Position numbers and translations under genes: made by a program
DNA from: Paracoccus alcaliphilus
Lineage (GTDB): Bacteria > Pseudomonadota > Alphaproteobacteria > Rhodobacterales > Rhodobacteraceae
Length of the DNA: 64,000 bases
Direction of reading: 5' to 3'
NCBI RefSeq assembly: GCF_028553725.1
Contig: NZ_CP067124.1
Coordinates: 434,001 to 498,000, forward strand
The notes under the pieces: model-generated
Database searches by the model: none
What the model was told of the DNA's origin: nothing
What the model saw: the letters and a program-made list of their open reading frames with translations, nothing else
Shown: in pieces, positions 16,908-41,313 of the stretch
Position numbering within the stretch: the first letter of the stretch is position 1
Layout of the letters: each line of letters opens with the position of its first letter

Positions 16908-17260
16908 TGTTCGGCCAGGGCGGCCCGGTGAAGGTCTTCGTGGCGACCCGGCCTGTCGACTTTCGCAAGGGGATCGACGGTCTGGCACTGGCGGTGCAGG
17001 AGATGTTCGGGATGGACCCGTTCTGCGGAGCCGCCTTTGTGTTCCGAGCGAAGCGGGCGGATCGGATCAAGCTCTTGATCTGGGATCAGACCGGGATGGT
17101 GCTGGTTCACAAGCGGCTCGAGGGCGGCAAGTTCGTCTGGCCACAGGTGCGCGACGGGGTCATGCGCATGTCCGGAGCGCAGTTTGCAGCGCTGTTTGAG
17201 GGCGTGGATTGGCGGCTGGTCCGACCCGAACGGGCGCGGCGCCCGCTGGCGGCGGGGTGA
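16904..17260 (+). CDS. tnpB: IS66 accessory protein TnpB (Orf2-like)
   Basis: 118 residues with the highly conserved IS66 Orf2 motifs VFVATRPVDFRKGIDGLA and KLLIWDQTGMVLVHKRLEGG. It is required for IS66 transposition together with TnpA; the biochemical role is unknown. The start overlaps the end of tnpA. Confidence 0.95.
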   Translation: MMFGQGGPVKVFVATRPVDFRKGIDGLALAVQEMFGMDPFCGAAFVFRAKRADRIKLLIWDQTGMVLVHKRLEGGKFVWPQVRDGVMRMSGAQFAALFEGVDWRLVRPERARRPLAAG

Positions 17261-17328
17261 CTGGCAGGCTGCGTCGAAACGCCTGTTTTTGCTGGCCTGC
17301 AAGGGCATCCTGTGATTCACTTCCCGCC

Positions 17329-18894
17329 ATGGAAACAGCTGATCTTGCGCGCGAAAACGCCCTGCTGAAGGCCCGCCTCGCCGAGGTGGAGGCGACGCTG
17401 GCCGAGACGCAAGAGGCCAATCGGCGGCTGCAGGATATCCTGCACGCGGCGCAGCGCGAGAAATTCGGCAAGCGCTCCGAAAAGCTCTCGCCCGACCAGT
17501 TCAACCTGCCCCTGGAAGATGCCGAATTTGCTCAAGGTGTGCTCGAGGCAGCACAAGAAAAGGCCGAAGCGGCGATGCAGCGGGCGCGCGGGGAAACACC
17601 CCGCAAGCCCAAGCGCAACCGCGGGCATCTGCCGTCCCATCTGCCTCGGGTTGAGCGCGTGATCGAGCCTGCCAGCACGCTCTGTCCCTGCGGTTGCGGC
17701 GAGATGTCCAGGATCGGGGAAGACGTGTCCGAACGTCTCGACGTGATCCCCGCCCAGTTCCGGGTGCTGGTCACGCGGCGCCCGAAATACGCCTGCCGCC
17801 GTTGCTCGCAAGCTGTCGCGCAGGCCCATGCCCCCGAGCATGTCGTGCCCGGCGGGCTGCCCACGGAACTCTTCATCGCCTGGATTATCGTCTCGAAGTT
17901 CGGTGACCACCTGCCGTTTTATCGGCAGGCCGAGATCTTCAAGCGGCAAGGGATCGATCTGGACCGCGGCACACTCGGCAACTGGGTCGGGCGCGCCTGT
18001 TTCCACCTGATGCCCGTCATCAACCAGATGCGTGCCCATCTGCGTGGCGCAGACCGCATCTTCGTGGATGAAACCCGCGCGCCGGTGCTGGAACCGGGCC
18101 TGAAACGCACCAAGAGCGGATTCTTCTGGGCCGTCGTATCCGATGATCGCGGCCATGGCGGGGCTGGCCCACCCATCGTGCTCTTCCACTATGCCCCTGG
18201 CCGGGGTAAGGCGCATCCGCTGAACTTCCTCGCCGGATACCACGGCCGCTTCCTGCAATGCGACGCCTACCAGTCCTACAACGCGATGACCGAGATCGCG
18301 CGCGACAATGGCCCGTGGCAACTGGTCTATTGCTGGACCCATGTCCGCCGCCGCTTCGTAAAGCGCTTCGAGAGCGATGGCTCACCCATTGCCGAGGAAA
18401 TGCTGCGCCAGATCGCGCTGCTTTATCAGATCGAGAAGTCCGTGCGGAGCAAGGAGGCCGCTATGCGCCTTGCTGCCCGGCGTGAGCATTCGGCCCCGAT
18501 CATCGCGGCGCTGAAACCCTGGCTGGAAGCCCAACTCTCGCGCATACCGCAGAAATCCCAGCTTGCCGAAGACATCCGCTACTCCCTCGCGCACTGGCCC
18601 GGACTGATCCGCTTCCTCGAGCACGGCATGCTGGAGCTCGACACCAACCCGGTCGAGAACCAGATCAGGCCGATTGCCCTGACAAGAAAAAATGCACTCT
18701 TCGCCGGGAATGAAGTCGGCGCCGAAAACTGGGCTATGCTCGCCTCGCTGGTCGCTACCTGCAAGATGTCCGACGTGAACCCGGTCGACTATCTCGCCGC
18801 CACACTGCGCGCCATCCTCGACGGTCACCCACAAAGCGGTATCGAAGACCTCATGCCATGGCGCTTCAACCAGCCGTCAAGCCTCGCAGCATAG
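17329..18894 (+). CDS. tnpC: IS66 transposase TnpC
   Basis: About 521 residues. N-terminal coiled coil (LARENALLKARLAEVEATLA), then the zinc-ribbon-like CPCGCGEM, then the DDE domain with IFVDETRAPVL, LQCDAYQSYNAM and a glutamate in the helix ending DTNPVENQIRPIAL. The C-terminus LPWRFN-type motif (LMPWRFNQ) is typical of the family. The ATG at 17329 is chosen over an upstream frame extension that lacks family similarity. Confidence 0.95.
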   Translation: METADLARENALLKARLAEVEATLAETQEANRRLQDILHAAQREKFGKRSEKLSPDQFNLPLEDAEFAQGVLEAAQEKAEAAMQRARGETPRKPKRNRGHLPSHLPRVERVIEPASTLCPCGCGEMSRIGEDVSERLDVIPAQFRVLVTRRPKYACRRCSQAVAQAHAPEHVVPGGLPTELFIAWIIVSKFGDHLPFYRQAEIFKRQGIDLDRGTLGNWVGRACFHLMPVINQMRAHLRGADRIFVDETRAPVLEPGLKRTKSGFFWAVVSDDRGHGGAGPPIVLFHYAPGRGKAHPLNFLAGYHGRFLQCDAYQSYNAMTEIARDNGPWQLVYCWTHVRRRFVKRFESDGSPIAEEMLRQIALLYQIEKSVRSKEAAMRLAARREHSAPIIAALKPWLEAQLSRIPQKSQLAEDIRYSLAHWPGLIRFLEHGMLELDTNPVENQIRPIALTRKNALFAGNEVGAENWAMLASLVATCKMSDVNPVDYLAATLRAILDGHPQSGIEDLMPWRFNQPSSLAA

Positions 18895-19295: not shown

Positions 19296-19327
19296 TCGAC
19301 AAGGTGATCAACTGATCACCTTGTCGA
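19296..19327. promoter_or_regulatory. perfect 32-bp palindrome across the DUF499 stop codon
   Basis: Arms TCGACAAGGTGATCA and TGATCACCTTGTCGA (15 bp each) are separated only by AC. The DUF499 stop codon (19308-19310, minus strand) lies inside the left arm. As RNA it would form a very stable hairpin at the 3' end of the defence operon, but without a U-run. It could be a transcript-end stabiliser, a rho-independent-like signal, or the scar of a duplication. Confidence 0.7.
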
Positions 19328-22300
19328 TGAAGCCCAATGTTGAAGCGTTTTCTGTCAGCGTTCTGACCTTCGACCGATCTAGGCCAGAAGGTACCTCGGC
19401 ATCGATCTCCAGGCGGAGTGTGACCTCGGCGCCAGGGACCGTTGTCAGCTGCTCCACGATCGCCTCAACGATTTGGGCCATATCTCTCGCAGGGCGGTCA
19501 GCCGAGATCATGACAGTGCCTTGGAACCTTGTTGGGTCTTTGGGCGCTTCGGGGGCTGGACCCACTGGGTCCGTGGTCCCGCCTTCACGCTCCCCGTCGG
19601 CTGTTGTTGGCGAGACTGGGGCACCAGATGAAGTTATCGAGGTGCTGGTGGTCCTTTCCGCTTGAGCAGGTACTTGTTTTGCTCTCGCGGCTTCAGCGAC
19701 AGTCGGCCTTACAATGACGCTGTCAGCGTCGATCGTGACGGCCGCGCTTCCTGCGCTTTCGATGGAAAGCCCACGATATTCGCTCTGAGCTTCATCGTAA
19801 GTTTCAGCATACGCGAAGGGGCCCGCCACCATTTGCGCAATCGAAGAACGAACGCAGCGGATCAGGGTATCCCGATCTTTCAGCCTGGGCAGGTAAGTGT
19901 ATCGGTTCAGGTATTCCCAAAGGTCTTTGAGATGCAGGTGGTCGCGATCGTTCCAGATATATTTTTCCAGCTCTCGGTTCAGGCGCTCCGGGCCAATCTC
20001 CGGAAGAAGAGCCTCTTCGCTGACGAGCTTCTTGCTTGCTCGGCTCAAAAGGCCATCCTGAGCGGGAATACGGGCCGATGAGAAGCCGACGTCGGTCTGG
20101 GCGCTGTCCTGATAAGGATAGATCAGGAAAGCCCATGTTTCCTTGAGCCTTGTCTGAACGGTCTCCTTGGCTTCCTGAGCCTTGTCTTTGGCGAGAGACA
20201 TCTCGCTGGACTTGAGGTCCAGGCGTCCGCTGTTCGCATCTCGAACGATCCCATCCCATGCCAGAAGAGAACGCATGGCGTCTTTCAGGTTATCGAGCTG
20301 ACGGGCGTCCGCAGCCAGGAAGACCAAGGTATTGCGATAGACGCGGGGCGTTGAGCCACGTTGAAGCAGGATGTCCTTCACTTCCGTCATCGCATCCGAG
20401 TTGTCTCGGCCATTGTGCGGATGCGCCACGCCAAGAACCACGGCACGGACACCGCCCGCCTCATCTGGCACAGCTGCGGAGCTGTCCGGGGCAACCTGGA
20501 CGGCATCGAAGTTTCCACGATCGGCAATGCCGTTGATGTAGGTCGACAGGGCCTTGTCGATTTCGACAAGGACAAGCGCCTCTTCGAGTTGACCCGCGCG
20601 ATCCGCAGCTGCGCGATTTAGGCTCGGCGACATCGAGTACCAGTATCGACCGAGGTCACCATGCATGAACTTGGCTTGGTTGGTCAGACGGCGCAGTGCA
20701 TCGCCGAAAATTGCAATCTTCTCGCCTGGCTGCACGACCCCCAAGTTAATCTGTTTATCATCGAGGCCTTTATTCTCAGAAGAATACAGTGGGGCAGTCC
20801 CCATGAACACAGTCCGCGCAACTCTGCGAGTGGCCGAGTACTTGTTCAGGTTCGGAGCGGCCTGATCGACCCTGTATGGTGTCGAAGACGTGCCATCAAT
20901 GTCGCCCGCAATGATCGCCTGCCACGACGGGTCCAGATAGTGCAGAAGCTCGGGCTCCACCCGTTCAGAACTGATGGACACACTGCCCGGCATGATCATG
21001 ACGGAAGGATCGCCGGACATCCAAAGCTCATGGATGACCTGGGCCATGAGACGCAGAACACCGCGTGTCCGCTGGAATTTCTCAAGCGACCCCCAAGCGG
21101 TGTAGAGCTGATCGAACAGGTCCGGATGGATCGGATAGGCCTTCTCCAGTTTCCGGCGGTAATCTTCGTCCGCACAGCCGAGCGGGAAGTCATTCGGGCT
21201 CTCTCGATACAGCTTCGCAAACTGCTTCAGGGTGTTATCGCGATGACGATAATTGTCACTCGGGATTTCCCGGAACAGGCGACGCCGGACGATCTCGTAG
21301 CTTTCTTCCTGCGACGCCGGTCGCCATGAGCTTTCGACACGGCTGAAGGTCTGTTTCAGACGAGCCAGAGCTTCCTGCCCCCCCTCACCGCCGACCTCGA
21401 TCTGAGAGGCAGGCAAGGAGGCGACCAACAGCGTTTGCGGTGCGGCTTTCACCGCCTCGGTCAGCGCTTGGACAAAGGACAGGTTCGCGTCGAACGAACC
21501 GGACGGCAGCCCCTCGATCTTGTATATCTGGCGCAGGTAGGCGACCCATTCGTCGATCAGGATCAGACAGGGGGAGAATTTGTTGAAGATCTCTTCCAGC
21601 AGGTTCGAGCCTGGTGCGATACCGCGGGCATCGTTTTCCGCGATCATGTCGAAGCCAGCTTGACCGCCAAGCTGCCATGCCAGCTCGCCCCAAGTTGTCT
21701 TGATGACCTGCCCACCTTCCAGAGTGATGACGTCCTGCGGGCCGCGCGACGTTCCGACCAGAACGGCGCGATTGACCTTCTCGGGGACATCCAGCCCGTT
21801 GCGCGACAGCAGCTGATCGAGGCCCGGCAGATCGCCGACACGGGTTTGCCCGGCCATGTGATAGAGCGCCAGCATCGAGTGCGTCTTGCCACCGCCGAAG
21901 TTGGTTTGCAGCTCGACCACCGGATCACCACCGGCACCCGACAGGCGCTTAGCCGCGCCTTTGAGCAGGGCGCTCAGGCCCTCGGTCAGATAGGTCCGGC
22001 TGAAGAACTCGCGCGGATCACAGTATTCCTGCGCCGCCGTCCCTTTGTGGACCTTGGCAAGGTCAGCGGCGAACTCGGCCTGCTGGAACTCGCCGGTCGC
22101 CACGTCCTGATGCGGCTCCACCACTTCGCGCCAGGGCAGCAGGCCCGAAACGGTCTCGGTCGAAATCGTTGTGGAACTGCTCCTCTTGCGCTCCTCGTTC
22201 CGGGCAAGCTCGGTGAACTTGGTCCGCAGGATCGACTCCCGCATCTTGCCGATCTCGTCGGCGCTGTCCCCGGCGCTCACCGCGTCGAGGATGCGGCGCA

Positions 22301-22640
22301 TGCTGTCCAGCGCCCGTTCCGCATCGTCGTAGGAGAACTTGCCATCATGGGCGAGCTTGTTGCGGACGTCGATCAGCTCGTTGACGATCGAGCGGTGCGT
22401 CCGGTCCAGAACGTCGCGAAATGCCTCGTTCCAGAGGCGCTCCATGATCTTCAGAAGCTTCTGCGTGTCGAGCGCGAACTTGCCGTTGGATTCCGGCCGC
22501 CATTCGGGGAAGCGCGAGATCACATCTTGCGGCCATCCCTTGCCCATCCCCGCTTCGAGCCGTTGCATCACGAAGGGCTGAAGGCCCTTCTGCATATGCT
22601 CCATCCCCTCGAACACATATTGGCGCGTGCTTTTTGCCAT
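19308..22640 (-). CDS. DUF499 AAA+-type ATPase of a putative anti-phage system
   Basis: 1110 residues. Walker A NFGGGKTHSML lies near residue 247 and Walker B CLILIDEWVAYLRQI near 362; the N-terminal block EYCDPREFFSRTYLTEGL precedes the P-loop, as in DUF499 proteins. The C-terminal 200 residues are Thr/Pro-rich then end in a compact basic domain. DUF499 proteins are repeatedly found beside DUF1156 methyltransferases in defence islands. Here it is the last gene of the operon, 12 bp after the DUF1156 gene. Probable role: ATP-driven remodelling or loading partner of the modification enzyme; this is inferred. Confidence 0.88.
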   Translation of the reverse strand: MAKSTRQYVFEGMEHMQKGLQPFVMQRLEAGMGKGWPQDVISRFPEWRPESNGKFALDTQKLLKIMERLWNEAFRDVLDRTHRSIVNELIDVRNKLAHDGKFSYDDAERALDSMRRILDAVSAGDSADEIGKMRESILRTKFTELARNEERKRSSSTTISTETVSGLLPWREVVEPHQDVATGEFQQAEFAADLAKVHKGTAAQEYCDPREFFSRTYLTEGLSALLKGAAKRLSGAGGDPVVELQTNFGGGKTHSMLALYHMAGQTRVGDLPGLDQLLSRNGLDVPEKVNRAVLVGTSRGPQDVITLEGGQVIKTTWGELAWQLGGQAGFDMIAENDARGIAPGSNLLEEIFNKFSPCLILIDEWVAYLRQIYKIEGLPSGSFDANLSFVQALTEAVKAAPQTLLVASLPASQIEVGGEGGQEALARLKQTFSRVESSWRPASQEESYEIVRRRLFREIPSDNYRHRDNTLKQFAKLYRESPNDFPLGCADEDYRRKLEKAYPIHPDLFDQLYTAWGSLEKFQRTRGVLRLMAQVIHELWMSGDPSVMIMPGSVSISSERVEPELLHYLDPSWQAIIAGDIDGTSSTPYRVDQAAPNLNKYSATRRVARTVFMGTAPLYSSENKGLDDKQINLGVVQPGEKIAIFGDALRRLTNQAKFMHGDLGRYWYSMSPSLNRAAADRAGQLEEALVLVEIDKALSTYINGIADRGNFDAVQVAPDSSAAVPDEAGGVRAVVLGVAHPHNGRDNSDAMTEVKDILLQRGSTPRVYRNTLVFLAADARQLDNLKDAMRSLLAWDGIVRDANSGRLDLKSSEMSLAKDKAQEAKETVQTRLKETWAFLIYPYQDSAQTDVGFSSARIPAQDGLLSRASKKLVSEEALLPEIGPERLNRELEKYIWNDRDHLHLKDLWEYLNRYTYLPRLKDRDTLIRCVRSSIAQMVAGPFAYAETYDEAQSEYRGLSIESAGSAAVTIDADSVIVRPTVAEAARAKQVPAQAERTTSTSITSSGAPVSPTTADGEREGGTTDPVGPAPEAPKDPTRFQGTVMISADRPARDMAQIVEAIVEQLTTVPGAEVTLRLEIDAEVPSGLDRSKVRTLTENASTLGFIDKVIS

Positions 22641-22652
22641 CTCAAATCACCT

Positions 22653-25448
22653 TCAAATATCCATGCGGGTCTGGCGGTTCTTGTCGGTCACGTGAATCGT
22701 GGCCGCCAGCCGGGTCAAATCTGTCCAGACGGCGATCAGGCCGTTGTAGGAGGTCGCCTCCTTCGCATCCTGGCGCTTGTTGCCGCAGACGTCGTAGAGG
22801 TAATAGGCAAGGTCCTTGACCGTCTCGGCCCGCTCGCTGCCGATCTTCTTCAGCAATTCTGCAGCCGCATATTCGCCGTCATTTTCCAGCGTGCGGATCA
22901 GGTGCTGGCAGGCCTCCCAGATCGTAAAATGATCATCGGTCTCGGGGTCCCACTCGGGGTCGATCTCGTCGCGCTTGAAGATGCGTACGCTCCCGGCCGA
23001 GCTCTCGACGATCCCGGCATGTTTGACACTTTCGACCGAGATGCCGCGCGCCGTGGCGATGCTGTTGGCGGTGCCATACTCGCCCTTGTCGAACCCGTGC
23101 TGCTGGAACCAGGTCGCGGTAAAGCGTGTCTCGGCATCGAACTCGCCATGCAGGTCGTTCAGATATTCGTCCAGCTGGGTGTTGATCAGTTGCAAGGCCG
23201 TCTTGACCGTCATCGGGCTGTCGTCTGCTTCAAGCACGGCGGCATACCGAGAGAACACACCCATGCCGGGGCCGATAGCCGATTGCGGCATGTCTGCGGG
23301 AGAGACGTTGGCAGCCTGAAGCTCGGCAATAGCTGGCGGAAGCTCTCGCTTCAGCGTGCGGATGAACTCGGCCCGAGTAACAGATTCAGCAGTCGCGTCC
23401 TTTTTGCGACAGACGAGGACTACTGAGTTGGCTAGGGCATTAGTGCCTTTGGCAATTAGGCGCCCTGGACTCTCTGTTCGAATTGGCCAAGTGCCAAGTA
23501 CTGAAAACCCCGCGGAAATAACTGCCTGCAGAAAAGTGGCCCAACCCGTTGAGCTAACCCCCTCTTGATCAACCTCGCTTTGCTTGAATGCGTAATAGAT
23601 CGTAGCGGGGATTGCTGTGGAGCTTCGCTCTGCCATACGTGCAATCGCTGCCGTCATCCCTTCCAGAAAGAAGCGCTCAGCGGCATCATTACCCCCATGC
23701 CGGTATGGAGTGGCTACTAACTCTTCAGTCTTCGGTGTAGCCAAGACGCCAAAAAGATCTGGAAAGGTGGGTTTCAAAGACTGCTTCAGCCAGCAGTAGA
23801 AGAAGTCTGAAAGGTCAGCATAACCAATATTGTCATAATATGGCGGATCAGACGAAATAACGGTCCCAAACTCATACTGAACCTCTCCGGCGTTTATTTG
23901 ATTCACTGATCCGAAACCACGAGCGGGAAAGTCAGCGACAGATTTGCTGATTTTCTCTATTGGTGTGAGCCAGTTTCCTCCTGAATTGGAGAAAAAATTT
24001 ACTTCCGCATAATCCCAAACCATTGGGATAGCCTGCCGAGCAAATGTCTCACGCAATGCACCGCGATCACTCATCCAGCTTGTCACAGTTGATCCGAGGT
24101 TGGTCAATTTTGATATCGCAAATGCCAAGTAGACACTCACGGCTTCGGCGTAGGCCTTCCCTCCCGTCCCCCCGTCTCTTATAGGGGTAGGATCGGAGCC
24201 ATGGTATTCTATGGCATCATTTTCGATCTGTTCGCGCGCCAGATGTACTAGATCGGTGAAGGTATTGAGCGCAACAAGTTGGCGATCAGTAAATAAGTCT
24301 CCAAACGTTTCCATTCCGTAGGCTGGCGGCGAAAACCATCGCGGATTTTTCGGTTGAAGTTGTTCTGGCTTCCAATCGGGAACTGCACATCTTGCAATGT
24401 CCTCATGGGTCTTGGAAGGCGAAAAGTAAAGGCGCCCACCTTTGCCTTCCCCGACGATGGCGATGAGTACTTGGCCTAGCTTCCCGGCTTTACCTGCAGA
24501 AGTAATATGTTTTGCGGTAATCGCAGTATCCGACATCAAACAACGAAAGTTACTTCCGCGACCTGCCTTAGTTCCCGATTTTGCTGTAGCTAACTCCGCC
24601 TTGGTCCCACCATGACGAACATTGTAGGAAATTGTTTTGGTCTTGCGGTCCACAACTGGTTCGATCCAGGCTTCCTTTCCGCTTCTCGAGCTGAGCAAAA
24701 AGCTTGACGTAATGGGAACCTGTACGTCTGAAAACGCAGGATCTGGGCTCGGAACAGTGCGCGCCCAAATCCAAGCAATTACAGTTGCCGTTCCACCACC
24801 TTGTTCTTTTGGTAGGTCCACTTTGGGGTAAAGATGTCCTATGCGCTCCCAAGCCTTCTCGCGCATCCATTCCCCATAGTATTTCACATCCTCGGCCAGC
24901 CCTTCGGAGTTGCGATAGAAGGACCGGTCCTTGATGCCCGGATGGATCGGCTCCAAGTCCTTGAACTTCGGCGGGATCTCGATCATCGCCTTGCCGATCA
25001 TCACCGCCACCGGGTTCAGGTCCGACCCATAGGCGGGCAGGCCCAGGCGCTGCGCCTCCAGCGGGATCGACCCACCCCCCGAGAATGGGTCATAGACCGG
25101 CGGCATCTCACCCCCGCAGCTGCGTCGGATTTCCGCCCGCGCCCGCTCCAGAACTTCCTCGTTGGTCGAGTTCTCCCATTTCACCAGCTCCTCGATGATC
25201 TGGAACAGGCGCTTGCGCTCGGCCTCCACCGCCTCTTCGGTCGGGAACTGATCCGGGTGGCTGGAGGGGTCATCCACCAGCTGCGCAAATAGCACCGCCC
25301 GACACGCCGCCAACGGCCGCCGCGCCCACCACTGGTGCAGCGTGCTGGGATGCCCATGCCGGATCGACTTCTCCCGCGCCGAAGCCGCATTGATCGCTTC
25401 CAGCGGGATCGCGACTTCGATCAGCTTCTTTTTATAAGTTTGGGTCAT
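22653..25448 (-). CDS. DUF1156 DNA methyltransferase-like protein
   Basis: 931 residues. The N-terminus has the DUF1156 signature HGHPSTLHQWWARRPLAACR (residues 31-50). A SAM-binding motif I, DPFSGGGSIPLEAQRLG, begins at residue 120, and a catalytic motif IV, DPPYYDNIGYADL, lies near residue 532; DPPY points to amino-methylation of adenine or cytosine. Its start overlaps the ASCH stop as ATGA and it lies 12 bp before DUF499. GC content falls in the middle third (about 23400-24830), where the target-recognition part would be expected, which suggests domain exchange. Target sequence unknown. Confidence 0.9.
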   Translation of the reverse strand: MTQTYKKKLIEVAIPLEAINAASAREKSIRHGHPSTLHQWWARRPLAACRAVLFAQLVDDPSSHPDQFPTEEAVEAERKRLFQIIEELVKWENSTNEEVLERARAEIRRSCGGEMPPVYDPFSGGGSIPLEAQRLGLPAYGSDLNPVAVMIGKAMIEIPPKFKDLEPIHPGIKDRSFYRNSEGLAEDVKYYGEWMREKAWERIGHLYPKVDLPKEQGGGTATVIAWIWARTVPSPDPAFSDVQVPITSSFLLSSRSGKEAWIEPVVDRKTKTISYNVRHGGTKAELATAKSGTKAGRGSNFRCLMSDTAITAKHITSAGKAGKLGQVLIAIVGEGKGGRLYFSPSKTHEDIARCAVPDWKPEQLQPKNPRWFSPPAYGMETFGDLFTDRQLVALNTFTDLVHLAREQIENDAIEYHGSDPTPIRDGGTGGKAYAEAVSVYLAFAISKLTNLGSTVTSWMSDRGALRETFARQAIPMVWDYAEVNFFSNSGGNWLTPIEKISKSVADFPARGFGSVNQINAGEVQYEFGTVISSDPPYYDNIGYADLSDFFYCWLKQSLKPTFPDLFGVLATPKTEELVATPYRHGGNDAAERFFLEGMTAAIARMAERSSTAIPATIYYAFKQSEVDQEGVSSTGWATFLQAVISAGFSVLGTWPIRTESPGRLIAKGTNALANSVVLVCRKKDATAESVTRAEFIRTLKRELPPAIAELQAANVSPADMPQSAIGPGMGVFSRYAAVLEADDSPMTVKTALQLINTQLDEYLNDLHGEFDAETRFTATWFQQHGFDKGEYGTANSIATARGISVESVKHAGIVESSAGSVRIFKRDEIDPEWDPETDDHFTIWEACQHLIRTLENDGEYAAAELLKKIGSERAETVKDLAYYLYDVCGNKRQDAKEATSYNGLIAVWTDLTRLAATIHVTDKNRQTRMDI

Positions 25449-25852
25449 GCGAGTGCCTTTACAGCTTCGTCTTCTGCTAGGGCATCAGATACGCGTTGAT
25501 CGAGGGCGACCCAGATGACGGCGCCGCTCTTGTGGGTGTAGGGAATAGGCCGGTGAAGTCTGACGGCGTTCGACATGATCCAGGCATGTCGGTGTCGCGC
25601 GAATTTACCGGACAGGAATGTCTCGGGCGGGATGTGATGCTTGTCCTGGTTGTCGAGCATCTTCTGATCCGACAGCGGGCCATCCGCGCCTACCATGCGA
25701 GCCACGCCGACGACATGGCCGCTGCCTTTCTTGACGAGACCGATCCAGCCGCGCTGCTTGGCAGAGGTGCTCCGCATCTCCCATGTTTTCTCTCCCCTCA
25801 TGATCTTGCTGATCCAGGGTTCGTCGATGATGAGAGCTTTTTCGATTTTCAT
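25445..25852 (-). CDS. ASCH-domain protein
   Basis: 135 residues. MKIEKALIIDEPWISKIMRG followed by KTWEMRS is the classic ASCH (PUA-like) start, in which the K-x-WE-R elements line the nucleic-acid or modified-base pocket. It overlaps both neighbours by 4 bp (ATGA at 25849-25852 and at 25445-25448), so it is translated in lockstep with the helicase and the methyltransferase. ASCH proteins bind RNA or modified nucleotides; in a modification operon it could read the methylated base. That role is inferred. Confidence 0.85.
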   Translation of the reverse strand: MKIEKALIIDEPWISKIMRGEKTWEMRSTSAKQRGWIGLVKKGSGHVVGVARMVGADGPLSDQKMLDNQDKHHIPPETFLSGKFARHRHAWIMSNAVRLHRPIPYTHKSGAVIWVALDQRVSDALAEDEAVKALA

Positions 25853-28800
25853 GCCGGCGCCTCTGCCCGCTCCAGCAGGCGTTTGATATTAAACTGAATT
25901 GCGTTCTGATCGAACGGCGGTTCACGCGAGTCAAGCGCACCGCGGACATACCTCGGGGCTGCGGTGAACCCCTCTTTGACCTGCACGATGGCGAGAATGA
26001 ATTTCTCGGGTTCGTGGAGCGATGTGATGATCTCCTGCCGGGTCAGCATCACCGTGTCCGCACCGTCGATCCGGCCTTTGACCTCAATGAACCGCATGTG
26101 GTTGGTGGCGGGGTCGAATGACGCGATGTCGTAGCCGATCTTTCGGGCCGACACGTCCTCGGGTTCGTTTCCAAGAGCGCGCTCGGCTGCCATGACGGCA
26201 CTCATTGCCTTCAGCTCGATCGCGCGGCGGGCCTCAGGATCTTCGGAGAAGCCACTGGGCTTGGCCGAGCTGCCCTTGCTCAGGAGCAAGCCTCTCGGGA
26301 CCACGACCATGCCGCCCCGGACGCGCGGCGGCTGGGACGTGATGAACCGCTCCTGTTCGATCAGCTCAAGACGGCGGCGCAGGCGTTCGGCGAGGTCCTC
26401 CGCCCTGCGTTCTGCGTTGCGCCAGTTGGACCGGACCTTCTTGCCCGCCTTTTCCTCTTCCTTCAGTTCGGCTGCGCGAGAATCCCAATAGTTGATCTCT
26501 TTCTTCAGCCGGGCTTTGACCTCGCTCTCGACCTTGTCGATCTCCGGGAGGCGCCGCTCGCGTACTTCGGCGACATGGCCTTGGGCAAGCTCGATGGTCG
26601 CGTATTGGACCACGCGCTTTTCCAGATCTGCCGTGAGCCAGGGGGCACTGATCTCTGTCTGAACAGACGCAATCTCTTCCGGTGTCGCGGCCCGCAGGTT
26701 CAGGTGCGGCGCGATCCCGGCATCATGGATTTCGCCTGCCTGATTGACCGTTGCGAACTGAAGCTTCTGCGAGACGAGGTTGGCATTGCCTGCGTGACCA
26801 GGACGCCCGTCCTGCACCGAGTGCTCCAGCAAGAAGAGGGCTTCGACTGCCGTACCGTCGTCCGTGTCGTCGACCAGCACAGCCCCTTGCTTCATCAGAT
26901 GATCGTTCTGCTCGCGGACGATACTGATCACCGCGTCCAGCAAGGGGTGCCCCGGATAGACGAAAGCCGCCACCGGCTGCTGGTTGATCTTCGACTTCTC
27001 GAAGCAGATCCGTTCGTACTTCTTCTGGATCGGTGCTCCTCCACCGATCTGGCGGTCCCGTTCCCGGATGATGAGCGGGACGTGGGTGATTTCCCAACGG
27101 CCTTCTTCGCGTCGCTTGATCTGCCCGCCAAGGCGCTGGAACGCCTCGACAAAGAAACTCTGGATGTGGTGCGGTTGGAGACGTTGCGCTTCGGCCTTCT
27201 CCATCGCGATCCGGAGCTCCTGGACTTGAGCCGCTGGCATCGTGTCGTTGGTGAGTTGCCGCTTCTGGAGAAGGGTCAGAAGGTGGCTCTGATCGACTGC
27301 GCCGTCGACTGCCTTGTAGAGGCGGGCCTTAACGTCCTCATCGTCGTTGTACTGGATCGCTTCCAGCAGCAGGTCTCGAAGCGGGCGATCCTCGAAAAGC
27401 TCGCCCAGGACGTCATAAACCCGTCCGCCCAGAGCCTCACGGGCGGCTTCCAGTTTTTCGAGCAGGCGGGCATAGACGTCGCCTTCGCGGGTGTCCTTCG
27501 CGACGAGGTTCCAGAGGTGGCATACCTCGGTTTGCCCGATCCGGTGGATACGGCCGAACCGCTGCTCGATCTTGTTCGGGTTCCACGGCAGGTCATAGTT
27601 CACCATCAGGTGCCCGCGCTGAAGGTTGACGCCTTCCCCCGCAGCATCGTTCGCAATGAGGACAAGCATGTCCCTGTCCTGCATGAAGCGCTCGACGACC
27701 TTGCGGCGCTCTTCCCGCGTCACTCCCCCGTAGATCACGTCCACTGCATCGGGTTTGCCGAGGCGCGCGGTCACCTTGTTGCGGAGGTATTCGAGCGTGT
27801 CCTTCGGCTCGGTGAAAATGATCAGCTTGCGACGATGCCCGTCAGGATCGAGCATCAGATCATCATCAAGGATCTTGTCGAGTTGCTGCCATTTGGTGTC
27901 GTGCCCGGAATGCAGGACACGAAGAGCCATGCCCTCCAGACCTTTCAGGGTCTCGACCTCGATTTCCAGCTGCTCGGCCGTCTCGGCACTGGTAGCGCTG
28001 GTCGAGATCAGGTCTTCCATCTCGTCGATTTCGTCCTGACCATACTCATCCATATTGGTCAGCAGGTCTTGGTTGACCTTGGGCTGTGCGAAGCCCGCTC
28101 GGTCACTCTTGGCCGCAAGTCGCACTTCGCTCAGCTCTGCCTCAAGCCGTTCACGGCGACGCTTCAGGGACTGGTAGATTGCAGCGGGGCTTGAGGCCAA
28201 GCGCCGCTGAAGGATCTGCAACGCGAAGCCGACGTTGTTCTTCTTGCGTCCATCGGTTTCGGCGAACCGCAAGACGCGGTTCATCTCGTCACGGACGTAG
28301 TCCGTCACGGCGGTATAAAGTTCAGCCTCTTCAGGGGAGAGGTCGTATTTGACTGTGTAGGCGCGGCGCTCGGGGAAGAGCGGCCGACCGTCAAACCGTA
28401 GCAGCTCTTCTTTGGTCAGGCGGCGCATCATGTCCTCGACGTCAGCGACATGGACACCGTCCCGGAAGCGACCTTCGAACCGGTCGCCGTCCAGGAGAGC
28501 CATGAATAGCTGGAAGTCGCGTTCTTTGCCGTTGTGCGGTGTGGCCGACATCAGCAAGAAGTGACGGCAGACATGTCCCAGCTTCTGCCCAAGCTGGTAG
28601 CGCTTGGTGTACTTCGCCTCACTGCCGAAGAACGTCGCGGACATTCGATGGGCTTCGTCGGCGATGATCAGGTCCCATTCGGTCGACTTAAGGAGCTTTT
28701 CTTGAAGCTCTTCATTGCGTGCCAGGACATCCAGTCGAGCGATCATCCTGTTGCAGTCGTTGAATGGATTACCCGATCGGGAGCTCTCGATCATGTCTCG

Positions 28801-29349
28801 GCTCAGGATGTCGAATTCCAGGCCGAACTTCTCTCCCAGTTCATCTTGCCACTGTTCGACAAGACTGCCCGGAGCGACCACCAAGCACCGCTCCAGATCA
28901 CTGCGAGCGATAAGCTCCTTGATCAAGAGGCCAGACATGATGGTCTTCCCGGCACCGGGATCGTCGGCCAGTAGGAAGCGCAACGGTTGCCGAGGCAGCA
29001 TCTCCCCGTAGACCGCAGAAATCTGGTGGGGAAGAGGATCGACCTGGCTGGTATGGATCGCGAGATAGGGGTCGAAGAAATGGGCTAGTTTGATGCGGTT
29101 TGCCTCGGTCACCAGACGCAAGAGAGCGCCATCGGCATCGAATGACCAATTCCGACCTGCGGATTGGACATCAAGGCGATGTTCATCGTCGCGATAGATT
29201 GTCGTTTCAGCGACCGATCCGCTTGACTGCCGATATACGACGTTGACAGCTTGGTTGCCGATCCATTCGACAGAGACCACTTCCACGGCGCCGCCGGGCA
29301 TGATGCCAGAGACACGCCCGCCAGGTTTTATGTCTTCAAGTTTTATCAT
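25849..29349 (-). CDS. SNF2-type helicase with C-terminal DUF3883 nuclease-like domain
   Basis: 1166 residues. Helicase core: motif I FLLADDPGAGKTIMSGLL near 135, motif II DEAHRMSATF near 232, motif III LMSATPHNGKERDF, and the C-lobe with LIANDAAGEGVNLQ and QRFGRIHRIGQTE, all typical of SNF2/RapA-like translocases. A charged coiled-coil stretch follows (about 960-1030). The C-terminal 120 residues contain GYDIASFD and RFIEVKGRID, a D...ExK pattern of DUF3883, related to PD-(D/E)xK nucleases. It resembles DISARM DrmD in layout, but the other DISARM core genes (DrmA, DrmB, DrmC) are absent here. Start has no strong ribosome site. Confidence 0.88.
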   Translation of the reverse strand: MIKLEDIKPGGRVSGIMPGGAVEVVSVEWIGNQAVNVVYRQSSGSVAETTIYRDDEHRLDVQSAGRNWSFDADGALLRLVTEANRIKLAHFFDPYLAIHTSQVDPLPHQISAVYGEMLPRQPLRFLLADDPGAGKTIMSGLLIKELIARSDLERCLVVAPGSLVEQWQDELGEKFGLEFDILSRDMIESSRSGNPFNDCNRMIARLDVLARNEELQEKLLKSTEWDLIIADEAHRMSATFFGSEAKYTKRYQLGQKLGHVCRHFLLMSATPHNGKERDFQLFMALLDGDRFEGRFRDGVHVADVEDMMRRLTKEELLRFDGRPLFPERRAYTVKYDLSPEEAELYTAVTDYVRDEMNRVLRFAETDGRKKNNVGFALQILQRRLASSPAAIYQSLKRRRERLEAELSEVRLAAKSDRAGFAQPKVNQDLLTNMDEYGQDEIDEMEDLISTSATSAETAEQLEIEVETLKGLEGMALRVLHSGHDTKWQQLDKILDDDLMLDPDGHRRKLIIFTEPKDTLEYLRNKVTARLGKPDAVDVIYGGVTREERRKVVERFMQDRDMLVLIANDAAGEGVNLQRGHLMVNYDLPWNPNKIEQRFGRIHRIGQTEVCHLWNLVAKDTREGDVYARLLEKLEAAREALGGRVYDVLGELFEDRPLRDLLLEAIQYNDDEDVKARLYKAVDGAVDQSHLLTLLQKRQLTNDTMPAAQVQELRIAMEKAEAQRLQPHHIQSFFVEAFQRLGGQIKRREEGRWEITHVPLIIRERDRQIGGGAPIQKKYERICFEKSKINQQPVAAFVYPGHPLLDAVISIVREQNDHLMKQGAVLVDDTDDGTAVEALFLLEHSVQDGRPGHAGNANLVSQKLQFATVNQAGEIHDAGIAPHLNLRAATPEEIASVQTEISAPWLTADLEKRVVQYATIELAQGHVAEVRERRLPEIDKVESEVKARLKKEINYWDSRAAELKEEEKAGKKVRSNWRNAERRAEDLAERLRRRLELIEQERFITSQPPRVRGGMVVVPRGLLLSKGSSAKPSGFSEDPEARRAIELKAMSAVMAAERALGNEPEDVSARKIGYDIASFDPATNHMRFIEVKGRIDGADTVMLTRQEIITSLHEPEKFILAIVQVKEGFTAAPRYVRGALDSREPPFDQNAIQFNIKRLLERAEAPA

Positions 29350-29403
29350 GGCAGGTCGTGTCCGGTTTCAAAAGCGTTTGATGCAGAGTGTCATGGCCTA
29401 GCG

Positions 29404-30276
29404 TCATGTGGTGCCCCTCATCTGTTCGAGGAGTTCGGAGGGGCCGGTGAGAATGATGTGTTGCTGATGAGCCGGTCGAGCGTTGGCAGGCGTATCAAGA
29501 CCCAGCCGCTTCAAGGTGTAGAACAGCATACTTTTGCGAACTTCGAGTTGAGCGCGGCCGCCGGTCATTTCGTAGTCAAGTTCAACAGCTCGCCGTTGTG
29601 CATTGGACAGATCGGGATGAGGGCCGACTTCCAACATGATGCTCATGCACCAGTCGAGATCGCTGGAAGGATCGACGCCGTCGTCATCGAGCGGTTGGAC
29701 TTCGAGTATCCGACTGATCACGAAGTCCCGGAAGCCGTCCGCAGAAAAGCAAAAGGCGCGGCAGTGCCATCGGAAGCCGTCAAAGCAAAGAGCGTGGGGT
29801 GAGATGGATCGCTCTTTCGGTTCGTCGGCTGACATCGACTGGTAAGTGATCTTTAGCCGCTTCTTCGCGTCGATTGCTCTCAAAATGGGGCGCAATGTCT
29901 CAGGCTTCACGCCGCGCGATGGGATGGGCGGGGAAAATACATCTGGGATCAGGGCATATCGTTCAGCATTCTGGATGCAGGCGCCGCGTGAAATCCCCAT
30001 TAGATCATTGAGGTAGAGTGAGGCGTCTGGTGTTTCGTATTGAGGGATGAACATCGTTCCCATGGCATAGGTTTTGGCATGGGGATCGTAGACGATGTTA
30101 TCGGGATGGTCCCGTTTGTATGCGTTAATTTCTTTGGATGCCTGTGCCCTTGAGAGGTCAAAAGCTCCCATCAAGTCTGGCAGCCCGAGCTGACCTACCC
30201 AATAGAGGCGGTGCTCGATGAAAGCGCGACGGCGCTGTGACGTCCACTGTGTTCGGTTATGCTGCGACTGTTCCAT
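29404..30276 (-). CDS. BrxR/CapW-type WYL-domain repressor
   Basis: 290 residues from the ATG at 30276; the longer open frame upstream is not family-like. The N-terminal winged helix starts RRRAFIEHRLYWVGQLGLPD and is followed by DLSRAQASKEINAYKRDHPD and IVYDPHAKTYAMG, exactly the layout of BrxR/CapW regulators. The WYL domain follows (ITYQSMSADEPKERSISPHA, FRWHCRAFCF) and a WCX-like C-terminus. Such proteins repress defence operons until an infection-linked ligand is sensed. It is first in the operon, 54 bp before the helicase gene. Confidence 0.9.
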   Translation of the reverse strand: MEQSQHNRTQWTSQRRRAFIEHRLYWVGQLGLPDLMGAFDLSRAQASKEINAYKRDHPDNIVYDPHAKTYAMGTMFIPQYETPDASLYLNDLMGISRGACIQNAERYALIPDVFSPPIPSRGVKPETLRPILRAIDAKKRLKITYQSMSADEPKERSISPHALCFDGFRWHCRAFCFSADGFRDFVISRILEVQPLDDDGVDPSSDLDWCMSIMLEVGPHPDLSNAQRRAVELDYEMTGGRAQLEVRKSMLFYTLKRLGLDTPANARPAHQQHIILTGPSELLEQMRGTT

Positions 30277-30332: not shown

Positions 30333-30350
30333 CTGTGTTATGCTGCACAG
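30333..30350. promoter_or_regulatory. candidate operator of the WYL repressor
   Basis: CTGTG, 8 nt, CACAG: a perfect 5-bp dyad centred about 65 bp upstream of the repressor start, in an AT-richer stretch. BrxR/CapW proteins bind inverted repeats at such positions. It also overlaps the last codons of the broken peptidase frame. Symmetry and position only. Confidence 0.4.
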
Positions 30351-30751
30351 TGTTTCGTCCCCTTGTGAGCATCAGCGCCTCGGGCTGCTTGAAAGTGTGC
30401 CCATCCTGAAAGGCCACGAGATCGTGCCCATTCAGGACCATCTTCCGGAGACAAGGTGACGATGACGAATTCGCCTTCCCGACTTCTGTCCGCCGGATCA
30501 GTCGAGTTTGCCGCATAGACGTCGGTAACCGTCCGATCCTCTACGGTGAAATCGGCGGTCGGCAACGCATCATCCGGGATCGTGCCGGAATAGCGAATTG
30601 CCACCGCAACGAAGCGTAACCCGTCCCCGAAAACTTCGGTGATGGCGGTCGCCTCCTGCGCGCTGATATCGCGCGCCAGAACCGGTGCACCCATCGTGAC
30701 AAGAAGCCCGGTCGAGGTCAGGCCGAGAACAAATATACGACGCGACGGCAT
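30338..30751 (-). pseudogene. 5' fragment of a secreted alpha/beta-hydrolase-type peptidase gene (COG4099-like)
   Basis: The ATG at 30751 has AAAGGAC upstream. It encodes a signal peptide (RRIFVLGLTSTGLLVTMGAP) and then a short Ig-like module, VAVAIRYSGTIPDDAL to GEFVIVTLSPEDG, typical of the N-terminus of predicted peptidases of the COG4099 type. The hydrolase domain that should follow is missing; after about residue 97 the frame runs into the promoter region of the defence operon. This marks the right edge of that insertion, near 30440-30460. Confidence 0.6.
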
Positions 30752-37995: not shown

Positions 37996-39044
37996 GGCTT
38001 TGTTGCGCAAAAGGTGCTTTGGGTATAGTTCCCCTTTCCTTGGATAGACTTATCCTGCTGGCATTGTCATGGGCGTGCCGAGAGCTGTGTAACGGTTCAT
38101 GACGGCGCAGCGGATTTGGATCTCCGCGACCTGCCGGTCGAAGTCCCGCGCCATGAGGCTCTGACCCAGACGTTTTACACAATGCATCTTTGCCTCGATG
38201 CGGCTTCGGCGGTGATACCCGCTCCATCGTCGCCAGATCGCCGGGCCGAGGTATTTGACGGCCCGGAGGATTTCGTTGCGGGCGCGGGCGCCGGCAGTTG
38301 TCGGCTTCCAGGGTTGGGCATTCTTGCGCGGCGGGATGATCGCCTCTGCCCCTCGATCTGCAATTGCGTCATGGCACTTGCGGGTATCAAAAGCCCCGTC
38401 GCCAGTCACGGAGCCGATATCCTCATCGGATGGGATCTGGCTGAGCAATTCCGGTAGCATCGGCGCATCACCGATATCGCTCCCGGTCGCCTCGACGGCC
38501 CGCACCTCCAGCGTTTCCTCATCGACCGCGATGTGAACCTTGCGCCAGATGCGCCGCCTGGTGCCACCGTGCCTGCGGGCATTCCACTCGCCTTCGCCCT
38601 CCGCCTTGATGCCGGTGCTGTCGATCAGCAGGTGTAACGGGCCGTTGCCACCCCGATAGGGAATATCCACCGTCAGGGTCTTCTGTCGGCGGCATAGCGT
38701 GCTGTAATCCGGAACCGCCCAGTCCAGCCCTGCCAGACCGAGCAGACTTTCGACAAAGCCCGTCACCTGCCGCAACGGCATGCCAAACTGCACTTTCAGC
38801 GTCAGGCAAGCCTGGATGGCCGCATCGCTGTAAGCTTGCTGGCGGCCTCGTTTGCCGCTCGGAGGCGGCGACCAGATCATCGACGGATCAAACCAGATCG
38901 TCAGCGAGCCACGTCGCTTCAGGGCAGAATTATAGGACGACCAGTTCGTGGTCTTGTATCTCGTCGGGGTCCAGCTGCTCATGCCCAAAGGTATCACGCT
39001 GGATTCGCAAGATGAATCCCGTCAGCCATTTGCGCAACAAAGCC
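37996..39044 (-). mobile_element. IS5-family (IS903-type) insertion sequence
   Basis: 1049 bp, bounded by inverted repeats GGCTTTGTTGCGCAAA at 37996 and its complement ending at 39044. It has one transposase gene filling the element. No matching target duplication is seen: the flanking 9-mers are CCCCTGATG and TACGTCTAG. Both flanks are gene fragments that do not join, so a deletion or recombination between copies has probably occurred at this element. Confidence 0.92.
38050..38985 (-). CDS. IS5-family transposase
   Basis: About 311 residues from the ATG at 38985 (MSSWTPTRYKTTNWSSYN). DDE residues: LHLLIDSTGIKAEGEGEWNA, SVTGDGAFDTRKCHDA and the helix RSRIEAKMHCVKRLGQSLM with the final Glu. 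RRGSLTIWFDPSM near the N-terminus is typical of the IS903 subgroup. The frame is intact. Confidence 0.93.
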   Translation of the reverse strand, partial: GMSSWTPTRYKTTNWSSYNSALKRRGSLTIWFDPSMIWSPPPSGKRGRQQAYSDAAIQACLTLKVQFGMPLRQVTGFVESLLGLAGLDWAVPDYSTLCRRQKTLTVDIPYRGGNGPLHLLIDSTGIKAEGEGEWNARRHGGTRRRIWRKVHIAVDEETLEVRAVEATGSDIGDAPMLPELLSQIPSDEDIGSVTGDGAFDTRKCHDAIADRGAEAIIPPRKNAQPWKPTTAGARARNEILRAVKYLGPAIWRRWSGYHRRSRIEAKMHCVKRLGQSLMARDFDRQVAEIQIRCAVMNRYTALGTPMTMPAG

Positions 39045-39222: not shown

Positions 39223-41313
39223 TTGGAATTTCGCATCGCCGATACCTTCACCGACAGCCTCGCCCGTCTGACTGCGCAAGAGCAGAAGGCGGCCAAGACG
39301 ACCGCGTTTGACCTGCAACTAGACTCAACCTCGAACGGGCTGTCCTTCCACAAGCTCGACCGCGCCAAGGACAAGAATTTCTGGTCGGTACGGGTGAATG
39401 CCGACATCCGGATCATCGTGCATCGGACACCCGCCAGCGTCCTGCTGGTCTATGTCGATCACCATGATGACGCCTATAAATGGGCCGAACGGCGCAAGAT
39501 CGAGCGTCACCCGACCACCGGCGCGATGCAACTGGTCGAGGTGCGCGAGCGGGTTGAAGAGGTCGAGATCTTCAAGCCGAAGGACGTGATCGCCACTCCG
39601 GAGGCGATCACCAAACCCGACGCCCTCCTCTTCGACAACCTGCGCAAGTTCGAGCTGATGGCCTTTGGTGTGCCCGAGGAATGGGTGAACGATGTCCGCG
39701 CTGCGACCGAGGACACGCTGTTCGACATCATCGAGCATTTGCCGCAAGAAGCGCAGGAAGCGCTACTGAAACTCGCCGTGGGCGAGAAACCGCAGCCGCC
39801 CGAACCTGTGCCGGCCGAAGCTGATCCCTTTGCCCATCCCGACGCCCAGCGCCGTTTCCGCGTGCTGACCAATGCCGAGGAACTGAAGCAGGCGCTGGAT
39901 TATCCTTGGGACAAATGGGCGGTGTTCCTGCACCCGGCCCAAGCCGACCTCGTCGAGCGGAACTTCTCGGGTCCGGCGCGGGTTTCGGGCTCGGCCGGGA
40001 CAGGAAAAACCATCGTGGCCCTACACCGGGCGGTCCATCTCGCGCGCGCCAATCCTTCCTCCACCGTTCTGCTGACCACGTTTTCAAAGCCGCTGGCGAA
40101 TGCTCTGCGCAGCAAGCTGATCAGCCTTGCGGGCAACGAGCCCCGAGTCTCGACCCGGATCGTCGTGAACGCAGTCTCGGCGGTTGGCTATGACCTCTAT
40201 TCCGAGCGGTTCGGGCAGCCCCAGATTGCCCCTGCCTCCCTGATCAAGTCGCTGATCACCAAGGCCGCTGCCGAGGTCGAAGGGCACCGGTTCTCGACCC
40301 ATTTCCTGATCGGAGAGTGGAACGACGTCGTCGATGCCTGGCAACTGCGCTCCTGGGAAGAGTATCGTGACGTGTCTCGGCTGGGCCGAAAAACGCGAAT
40401 CGGTGGCAAGCAGCGCGAAGCCCTGTGGTCCATCTATGAGCGGGTCCGTGCAGGGCTGGCAGAGCGGGGTGTTGTGACCTGGTCGGATATCTTTGGTCGC
40501 CTGGCGGACAGCTTCATCCAGAGCGAATCACGGCCCTTCGACTTTGCCGTGATTGACGAGGCACAGGATCTGGGTGTCGCCGAAGCACGCTTCTTTGCCG
40601 CGATGGCGTCCGGGCGCAATGATGGGCTCTTCTTTGCGGGAGATCTTGGACAGCGCATCTTTCAGCAGCCATTCTCGTGGAAGGCGCTTGGCCTTGATGT
40701 TCGCGGCCGCTCTCACACGCTGCGGATCAACTACCGCACGTCGCACCAGATCCGAACCCATGCTGATCGGCTTCTTCCCTCAACCGTTTCGGATGTGGAC
40801 GGCAATACAGAAGGGCGGCGTGGCACGGTGTCCATGTTCGACGGACCGCCACCCATGGTGTTGGCCTGTAGCGATGTCGATCACGAATGCCGCGCAGTTG
40901 CAGGCTGGATCTCGGATCGCCTGAAGGAGGGCAGTACGCCTCACGAAATCGGCCTCTTCGTGCGATCAAACGCGGAACTGAAACGTGCACGCACTGCGGC
41001 GAAGGCAGCGGGCGTTCGGTTTGTCGAGCTGAATGAGAAGATCGAAGTAGAGGACGGCGCAGTCGCAATCAGTACGATGCACTTCGCCAAAGGACTCGAG
41101 TTTCGGTCTGTAGTGGTCATGGCCTGCGACGACGAGGTGATCCCGGAATCCGAGCGGATCGAGTCCGTTGCCGATGACGCCGACCTCGAGGAGGTCTACA
41201 ATACCGAAAGACACCTGCTCTACGTGGCCTGCACGAGGGCCAGAGATCACTTGCTGGTCACGGGCGTTGCCCCGGTATCGGAGTTTGTCGACGACTTCCT
41301 CGAGGATCGCTGA
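39223..41313 (+). CDS. RelE/ParE-domain–UvrD helicase fusion
   Basis: 696 residues from a TTG start at 39223, with AAGGAG 8 nt upstream. Residues 1-95 are a RelE/ParE-superfamily fold: MEFRIADTFTDSLARL, LSFHKLDRAKDKNFWSVRV and NADIRIIVHRTPASVLLVYV. Residues about 225-690 are a superfamily 1 helicase: motif I GSAGTGKTIVALHRAV near 255, motif II FAVIDEAQDLGV near 441, motif IV-V LRINYRTSHQIR and ISTMHFAKGLEF, motif VI LLYVACTRARDHLL. Fusions of a toxin-like RNase fold to UvrD occur in defence islands. Probable role is phage defence or nucleic-acid quality control; not established. Confidence 0.85.
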   Translation: MEFRIADTFTDSLARLTAQEQKAAKTTAFDLQLDSTSNGLSFHKLDRAKDKNFWSVRVNADIRIIVHRTPASVLLVYVDHHDDAYKWAERRKIERHPTTGAMQLVEVRERVEEVEIFKPKDVIATPEAITKPDALLFDNLRKFELMAFGVPEEWVNDVRAATEDTLFDIIEHLPQEAQEALLKLAVGEKPQPPEPVPAEADPFAHPDAQRRFRVLTNAEELKQALDYPWDKWAVFLHPAQADLVERNFSGPARVSGSAGTGKTIVALHRAVHLARANPSSTVLLTTFSKPLANALRSKLISLAGNEPRVSTRIVVNAVSAVGYDLYSERFGQPQIAPASLIKSLITKAAAEVEGHRFSTHFLIGEWNDVVDAWQLRSWEEYRDVSRLGRKTRIGGKQREALWSIYERVRAGLAERGVVTWSDIFGRLADSFIQSESRPFDFAVIDEAQDLGVAEARFFAAMASGRNDGLFFAGDLGQRIFQQPFSWKALGLDVRGRSHTLRINYRTSHQIRTHADRLLPSTVSDVDGNTEGRRGTVSMFDGPPPMVLACSDVDHECRAVAGWISDRLKEGSTPHEIGLFVRSNAELKRARTAAKAAGVRFVELNEKIEVEDGAVAISTMHFAKGLEFRSVVVMACDDEVIPESERIESVADDADLEEVYNTERHLLYVACTRARDHLLVTGVAPVSEFVDDFLEDR

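Follow-up and report, generated by a model that had tools for sequence, protein, structure and literature searches.

A complete Hma operon with an ASCH gene

The Hma system, named in 2021 (Payne et al., PMC8565338), is defined by three genes encoding a helicase (HmaA), a methylase (HmaB) and an ATPase (HmaC). The same core of three protein families was already noted in 2013 (PMC3710099) and, beside EVE genes, in 2020 (PMC7641849), and was analyzed in 2026 as the Type-1 BREX-related (BR) system in a paper that credits helicase-based phage defense to Liu et al. 2024 (PMC12839542). Here we analyzed a stretch of 64,000 nucleotides from Paracoccus alcaliphilus (NZ_CP067124.1, positions 434,001 to 498,000; this whole stretch is referred to as the window), in which five minus-strand genes form an operon. 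The operon is a complete Hma system, equivalent to a HEPN-fused Type-1 BR system, located behind a WYL regulator gene of the CapW/BrxR type, and it carries an ASCH-domain gene between hmaA and hmaB.

All five genes are intact open reading frames. They encode the WYL regulator (29404..30276; 290 amino acids from its likely start), HmaA (25849..29349; 1166 amino acids), a Snf2-type helicase with a C-terminal PD-(D/E)XK nuclease domain (NOV_C/DUF3883), the ASCH protein (25445..25852; 135 amino acids) in the slot between hmaA and hmaB, HmaB (22653..25448; 931 amino acids), a DUF1156 methyltransferase with a DPPY motif, and HmaC (19308..22640; 1110 amino acids), a DUF499 AAA+ ATPase. The WYL gene and hmaA are separated by 54 base pairs (bp) and hmaB and hmaC by 12 bp, and the ASCH gene overlaps both its neighbors by 4 bp (ATGA). 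Re-checking of the coordinates thus gave the same compact arrangement as an earlier, sequence-only reading of the window, with three of the four junctions overlapping or 12 bp at most.

The PADLOC models matched HmaA with 1579.9 bits over residues 1-1165, HmaB with 1235.7 bits over nearly the whole model and HmaC with 974 bits over residues 167-1104, with the N-terminal HEPN part of HmaC lying outside the match. Pfam searches with the five proteins identified NOV_C (DUF3883 nuclease), DUF1156, DUF499, HEPN_Swt1, ASCH and WYL, so that the Snf2 helicase with C-terminal PD-(D/E)XK domain, the DUF1156 methyltransferase and the DUF499 AAA+ ATPase of Hma/Type-1 BR are all present, together with the optional HEPN domain. 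HmaA contains the motifs DDPGAGKT (Walker), DEAH and GYDI..FIEVK (nuclease), and HmaC contains NFGGGKTHS (Walker A) and LILIDEW (Walker B). The N-terminal HEPN_Swt1 domain of HmaC (22275..22607, minus strand; Pfam 98.6 bits, residues 12-122), absent from the earlier description of the DUF499 protein, carries an RX4H motif (RNKLAH) that is kept in all 16 aligned HmaC rows. In HmaB the motifs DPFSGGGS and DPPYYD were found. The DPPY motif is typical of amino-methylases, and we take the DPPYYD of HmaB to fit this type of enzyme. HmaB has been called an m5C methylase (PMC8565338) as well as an N6-methylase (PMC12839542). The sequence-only reading had proposed a modification-plus-restriction defense operon that belongs to an incompletely described system. 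The former part is supported; the latter is refuted because PADLOC matches the three core proteins nearly full length, which identifies a complete known system, the outcome which that reading had itself named as counting against it.

The WYL gene has its first in-frame start at 30516. The start at 30276 also fits and is favored because residues 1-287 counted from there align with residues 1-288 of CapW. In addition to its Pfam WYL match, the protein shows near full-length similarity to the PDB sequences of CapW (7tb6, E=7.8e-58) and BrxR (7t8k, E=1.5e-46), in agreement with the regulator type first suggested. Using a home-made hidden Markov model, a WYL gene was detected in at least 12 of 44 Hma loci, which is an undercount: the model missed the annotated WYL gene of locus L109 and the cut-off WYL gene of L099.

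Comparison with described systems

The HEPN-fused Type-1 BR loci (PMC12839542) share with the operon the HEPN-DUF499 ATPase, the DUF1156 methylase and the Snf2 helicase with C-terminal PD-(D/E)XK domain, and have no DUF3780 or PglZ. In the accessible text of that paper ASCH is mentioned once, fused to DUF3780 in a Type-2 BR context, whereas the window has ASCH in a Type-1 locus. Nucleases within or near BR loci, and embedded nucleases in BREX, are reported there; a fixed slot between hmaA and hmaB was not found described in the same text. Neither the ASCH gene of the slot nor the upstream WYL gene belongs to the three-gene definition of Hma in the accessible text of PMC8565338. Archaeal COG1743-DUF499-SWI2/SNF2-EVE operons (Bell et al. 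2020, PMC7641849) combine the same three core families with a partner of the PUA/ASCH superfamily; in gene content, they carry EVE, a proposed discriminator of modified bases, where the window carries ASCH. In the REase-ASCH operons with an Orc/Cdc6-type ATPase and a nuclease (PMC10853773), which are a predicted defense locus, ASCH is fused to the REase and HmaA or HmaB are not named in the accessible text, whereas the window ASCH is a separate gene.

BREX Types 1 and 3 have homologues of the methylase, the ATPase and (Type 3) the helicase, and WYL (BrxR) regulators also accompany BREX. PglZ sets BREX apart, however, and no PglZ match was found in the whole genome by a search that was positive in 2 of 14 named genomes. 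The DISARM models DrmA and DrmD match the HmaA helicase only, far below the HmaA model (DrmD 406 bits versus 1580), which makes HmaA a distant relative of DrmD, and DrmB and DrmC were not among the PADLOC matches listed for the five proteins (25 of 51 for HmaA). The operon is therefore neither BREX nor, judged on its five proteins, DISARM, as had been proposed. The Type-2 BR markers DUF3780 and HKD (PLD) nuclease gave no Pfam match in the five proteins at E<=0.01, and the NCBIfam PLD-helicase model scored 168.6 bits against HmaA (cut-off 1100), with its best stretch in the helicase part (residues 336-648). The operon is a known system in a new variant. What we did not find described in the open-access literature, supplements excluded, is an ASCH gene in Hma/Type-1 BR or a fixed slot between hmaA and hmaB.

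The hmaA-hmaB junction is a variable slot

To survey this junction, loci were chosen by an HmaB match (E<=1e-100), which was found in 16 of 398 genomes of a phylum sample, 12 of 394 of a family sample and 13 of 385 of a class sample. These 38 different genomes gave, with the window, 41 loci (the window's own, 12 from the family sample, 17 from the phylum sample and 11 from the class sample). Ten loci (L053, L054, L059, L061, L063-L066, L105, and L107) have no measurable hmaA-hmaB junction; the near-duplicates L050 and L051 were both counted, as were L062 and L078, in which HmaB is cut. One or more open reading frames are present in the junction of 23 of the 31 measurable loci and the remaining 8 are empty; when the window is counted with the family sample, 12 of 13 slots are occupied. 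The order of the core genes recurs in relatives. The ASCH gene, which the sequence-only reading had called unusual, occupies the slot in three of the 31 (window, L068, and L104). A search with ASCH itself gave six matches, five of which are additional ASCH loci (L002-L006) that lie outside this count.

The slot fillers include Septu PtuAB (L057, L098), a system that often co-occurs with Hma according to Payne et al. (PMC8565338), a GmrSD-like GmrSD_N/HEC-05 protein (L076), a TmtA/sacsin-like ATPase (L077, L099; part of it in L062), NYN (L050), DUF4145 (L055), HEC-08 (L058), PDC-S06 with PDC-M38AB (L060), and an AAA ATPase with similarity to PD-T4-4 and AriA together with a small protein (L072). 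Several fillers match no Pfam family at E<=0.01; in three fillers without a Pfam match (L073, L074, and L078), PD-(D/E)XK-like motifs were seen by eye only. On plasmids, 57 records matched HmaB, of which 40 were listed and 10 places were examined; as L108 duplicates L099 and L029 was added through its ASCH match, ten loci were available. Their slot is filled in six (L029, L109, L111, L115, L116, and L117), empty in two (L110, L112) and unclear in L114. In the tenth, L113 (2367-11647; Thermus thermophilus HB8 plasmid pVV8), hmaA is inverted, a Fic gene lies between hmaA and hmaB, and HicAB and HTH genes precede hmaC.

The hmaB-hmaC junction served as control. Among loci with a HEPN-type HmaC it measures 13-93 bp in 19 of 20 HmaB-query loci and 659 bp in L107. 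Outside this group it holds several genes in the plasmid loci L113 and L115 and spans 6.6 kb in L057, and in other loci without HEPN homology (L050, L051, L058, L061, L063, L064, and L106) the gap is 415-2335 bp, a length which may include the N-terminus of HmaC. This contrast indicates that hmaA-hmaB is the preferred, not the sole, insertion site within the HEPN group.

The slot gene and the HmaB recognition region are exchanged separately

At the DNA level, the window operon and L073 are 94.5% identical over hmaA and about 91% over the 5' part of hmaB, the 3' part of hmaB, and hmaC. Two stretches with sharp breakpoints cannot be aligned. The first is the slot, where the break begins some 33-43 nucleotides ahead of the hmaA stop and ends at the first hmaB codons. 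The second consists of hmaB codons ~250-530 (23859..24698, minus strand), which blastn leaves unaligned between two blocks of 91% identity and which represent the exchanged core of the presumed target-recognition region. In the proteins, every 50-residue block of HmaC as far as residue 1100 is 94-100% identical (the last ten residues 70%), compared to 41% for HmaB residues 251-530. The same double break was found between L005 and L071 (HmaA 97.0%, HmaC 98.1% identical), with ASCH in the former and a 131-amino-acid protein in the latter. L004 and L078, sisters on the HmaA tree (branches 0.0045 and 0.0077), have ASCH and a 217-amino-acid protein, respectively; in L078 HmaB is cut and no HmaC lies in the stretch. 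These three pairs with nearly identical HmaA thus differ in slot gene. L002 and L003 (HmaA 98.5%, HmaC 99.4%) both keep ASCH, with an HmaB region that is 44% identical. Taken together, the slot and the HmaB region look like separate units of exchange.

At least 8 changes of the ASCH state and at least 24 changes of slot content are needed along an HmaA tree with 41 rows. These numbers come from a quick tree with rows partly chosen through ASCH and ten long branches flagged, including L104 and L101; L051, L106, L113, L114, L117, and the loci with an unmeasurable junction were left off. For protein alignments 20 loci were supplied and short or missing proteins were dropped, leaving 19 HmaA, 17 HmaB, and 16 HmaC rows. 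Over all 120 pairs of the 16 loci for which HmaA as well as HmaB could be aligned, mean identity is 43.8% in the exchanged HmaB core versus 87.8% in residues 1-245, and the presumed target-recognition region differs even among operons with HmaA and HmaC 97-99% identical. If HmaA and HmaC stay constant while this region is swapped, modification and restriction should both depend on HmaB, as the two activities would otherwise be mismatched. HmaB therefore probably sets the specificity of both, for which BrxX of BREX provides a precedent (PMC11842806). This would bear on the proposal that the DUF499 ATPase contributes to recognition (PMC12839542).

Within HmaC, residues 1-150, which include the HEPN part, are 44-79% identical to the window in most relatives (L002-L077) and 80-92% in L004 and L067, the remainder of whose HmaC is at most slightly closer to the window than in other relatives. 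Exchange may extend to the HEPN part as a third unit.

The ASCH gene and its relatives

The slot protein of the window scores over the Pfam cut-off for ASCH, is homologous to TTHA0113 and has the ASCH fold. Its residues 20-27 (GEKTWEMR) match the GxKxxExR-type motif of ASCH domains, and K22, W24, E25, and R27 within them are invariant. The gene is under purifying selection, with a ratio of nonsynonymous to synonymous substitution rates (dN/dS) of 0.055-0.082. In some related slots a B3-type DNA-binding domain is either part of the ASCH protein or comes directly after ASCH, and in L082 an ASCH-B3 gene lies between the restriction and methylase genes of a type III-like locus. ASCH matches of any kind (E<=1e-5) were found in just 7 of 394 genomes of the family sample. 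One of the relatives, 80% identical to the window ASCH, occurs without Hma in L007 (10001-11531), where an AAA_17 ATPase gene and a GNAT gene adjoin it on the other strand; ASCH and AAA_17 have been described with GNAT-EVE operons (Bell et al. 2020, PMC7641849). In genome G638 a stray piece of ASCH (residues 68-134) runs directly into the initial 44 codons of hmaB (L081, 9581-9915). This remnant, separate from the other, cut Hma locus of that genome (L078), which has a different slot gene, appears to be the relic of a former Hma operon of the ASCH type.

Flanks of the operon and other genes in the window

An IS66 transposase gene (17209..18894, plus strand) lies to the left of the operon and a fragment of an EstA-type esterase gene (30338..30751, minus strand; 137 amino acids) to the right, which agrees with the mobile-element debris and the broken edge gene noted earlier. 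Of 41 genomes from the genus, 8 match the fragment, one of them the window's own. In the seven others the open frame is 428-498 amino acids long, and similarity stops at fragment residue 104-114 (104 or 105 in six), placing the island junction near 30437. A 16-nucleotide inverted repeat (88%, 2-nucleotide gap) at 30404-30437, at the island edge and upstream of the WYL gene, is a possible operator or element end. The G+C fraction in 2-kb windows is 0.53-0.62 across the operon versus 0.60-0.70 in most of the remaining window (0.57-0.58 at 45-48 kb). Given the IS66 gene on one side, the truncated esterase on the other and the lower G+C, it is plausible that the island is an insertion.

Elsewhere in the window, a UvrD-like helicase gene (39223-41313, plus strand; 696 amino acids), with a weak HigB-like match near its N-terminus, is adjoined by a transposase gene (38050-38997). 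A gene of L082 that shares a stretch with the ASCH-B3/type III-like locus is 79% identical to this helicase gene, which may be part of a second defense locus in the window.

Possible working of the system and of its slot

We consider it fairly probable that the operon is a restriction-modification-like defense of the Hma/Type-1 BR kind with an exchangeable accessory slot, which here holds an ASCH protein that binds nucleic acid, perhaps with a modified base. In this model HmaB would use its target-recognition region to methylate host sites and, when bound to the HmaC ATPase in a complex, would also recognize unmethylated sites on incoming DNA, which the HmaA helicase with its PD-(D/E)XK nuclease would then destroy. 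The HEPN domain of HmaC may serve as a last-resort RNase and the WYL protein would control expression. ASCH most likely binds nucleic acid, possibly a modified DNA base, and could either help the complex to recognize DNA that escapes HmaB or mark self.

Alternatively, ASCH could be an independent effector, an RNase or base hydrolase that forms a second line of defense and is not a reader for Hma. Slot fillers that match known or candidate defense modules (Septu PtuAB, PDC-S06, PDC-M38, HEC-08, HEC-05/GmrSD-like, TmtA/sacsin-like, and NYN) would suit such a role, as would the ASCH of L007, which occurs without Hma beside AAA_17 and GNAT genes. The fold of ZmASCH, an RNase by the title of its paper, is almost as similar as that of an ASCH bound to double-stranded DNA. 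The recurrent B3 partner and the ASCH-B3 gene in the type III-like locus point instead to DNA recognition, and we regard an effector as possible but rather unlikely. It seems unlikely, too, that invaders are recognized mainly by variable winged helix-turn-helix and RRM-like parts of HmaC, with HmaB only protecting self. Recognition by HmaC has been proposed (PMC12839542) and its residues 951-1050 are its most variable stretch in many relatives, but HmaC is nearly unchanged between the window and L073 where the HmaB region is replaced, and a separate specificity of HmaC would leave modification and restriction mismatched. A regulatory role of ASCH, or its presence as a neutral passenger, would agree with its small size, its variable occurrence and the eight empty slots; its low dN/dS, its overlaps with both neighbors and its repeated changes of state on the partly ASCH-chosen tree suggest repeated, selected acquisition, making this quite improbable. 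A defense system unrelated to Hma, an impression of the sequence-only reading alone, is practically untenable given the nearly full-length PADLOC matches of all three core proteins and their same order in relatives.

A wider form of the preferred model, which we hold to be doubtful, is that the slot is a general plug-in site for immune modules, that HmaB trades its region independently, and that ASCH, with or without B3, is a sensor of modified DNA that retargets HmaA. If true, HmaA would be sent to phage DNA whose bases hide the HmaB sites, and one operon would combine methylation-sensitive with modification-dependent restriction. Systems of the Hma/Type-1 BR kind are common, with 1,638 instances of Hma (PMC8565338) and Type-1 BR in 2,446 taxa (PMC12839542), and their recognition mechanism is so far a proposal in the literature we consulted. 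Natural operon pairs that are nearly identical but for the HmaB region, or but for this region and the slot gene, are ready-made experiments that require no engineering and could show which protein recognizes the target and what the slot contributes. With several fillers outside any Pfam family, the slot itself could also be searched for accessory immune genes that are new.
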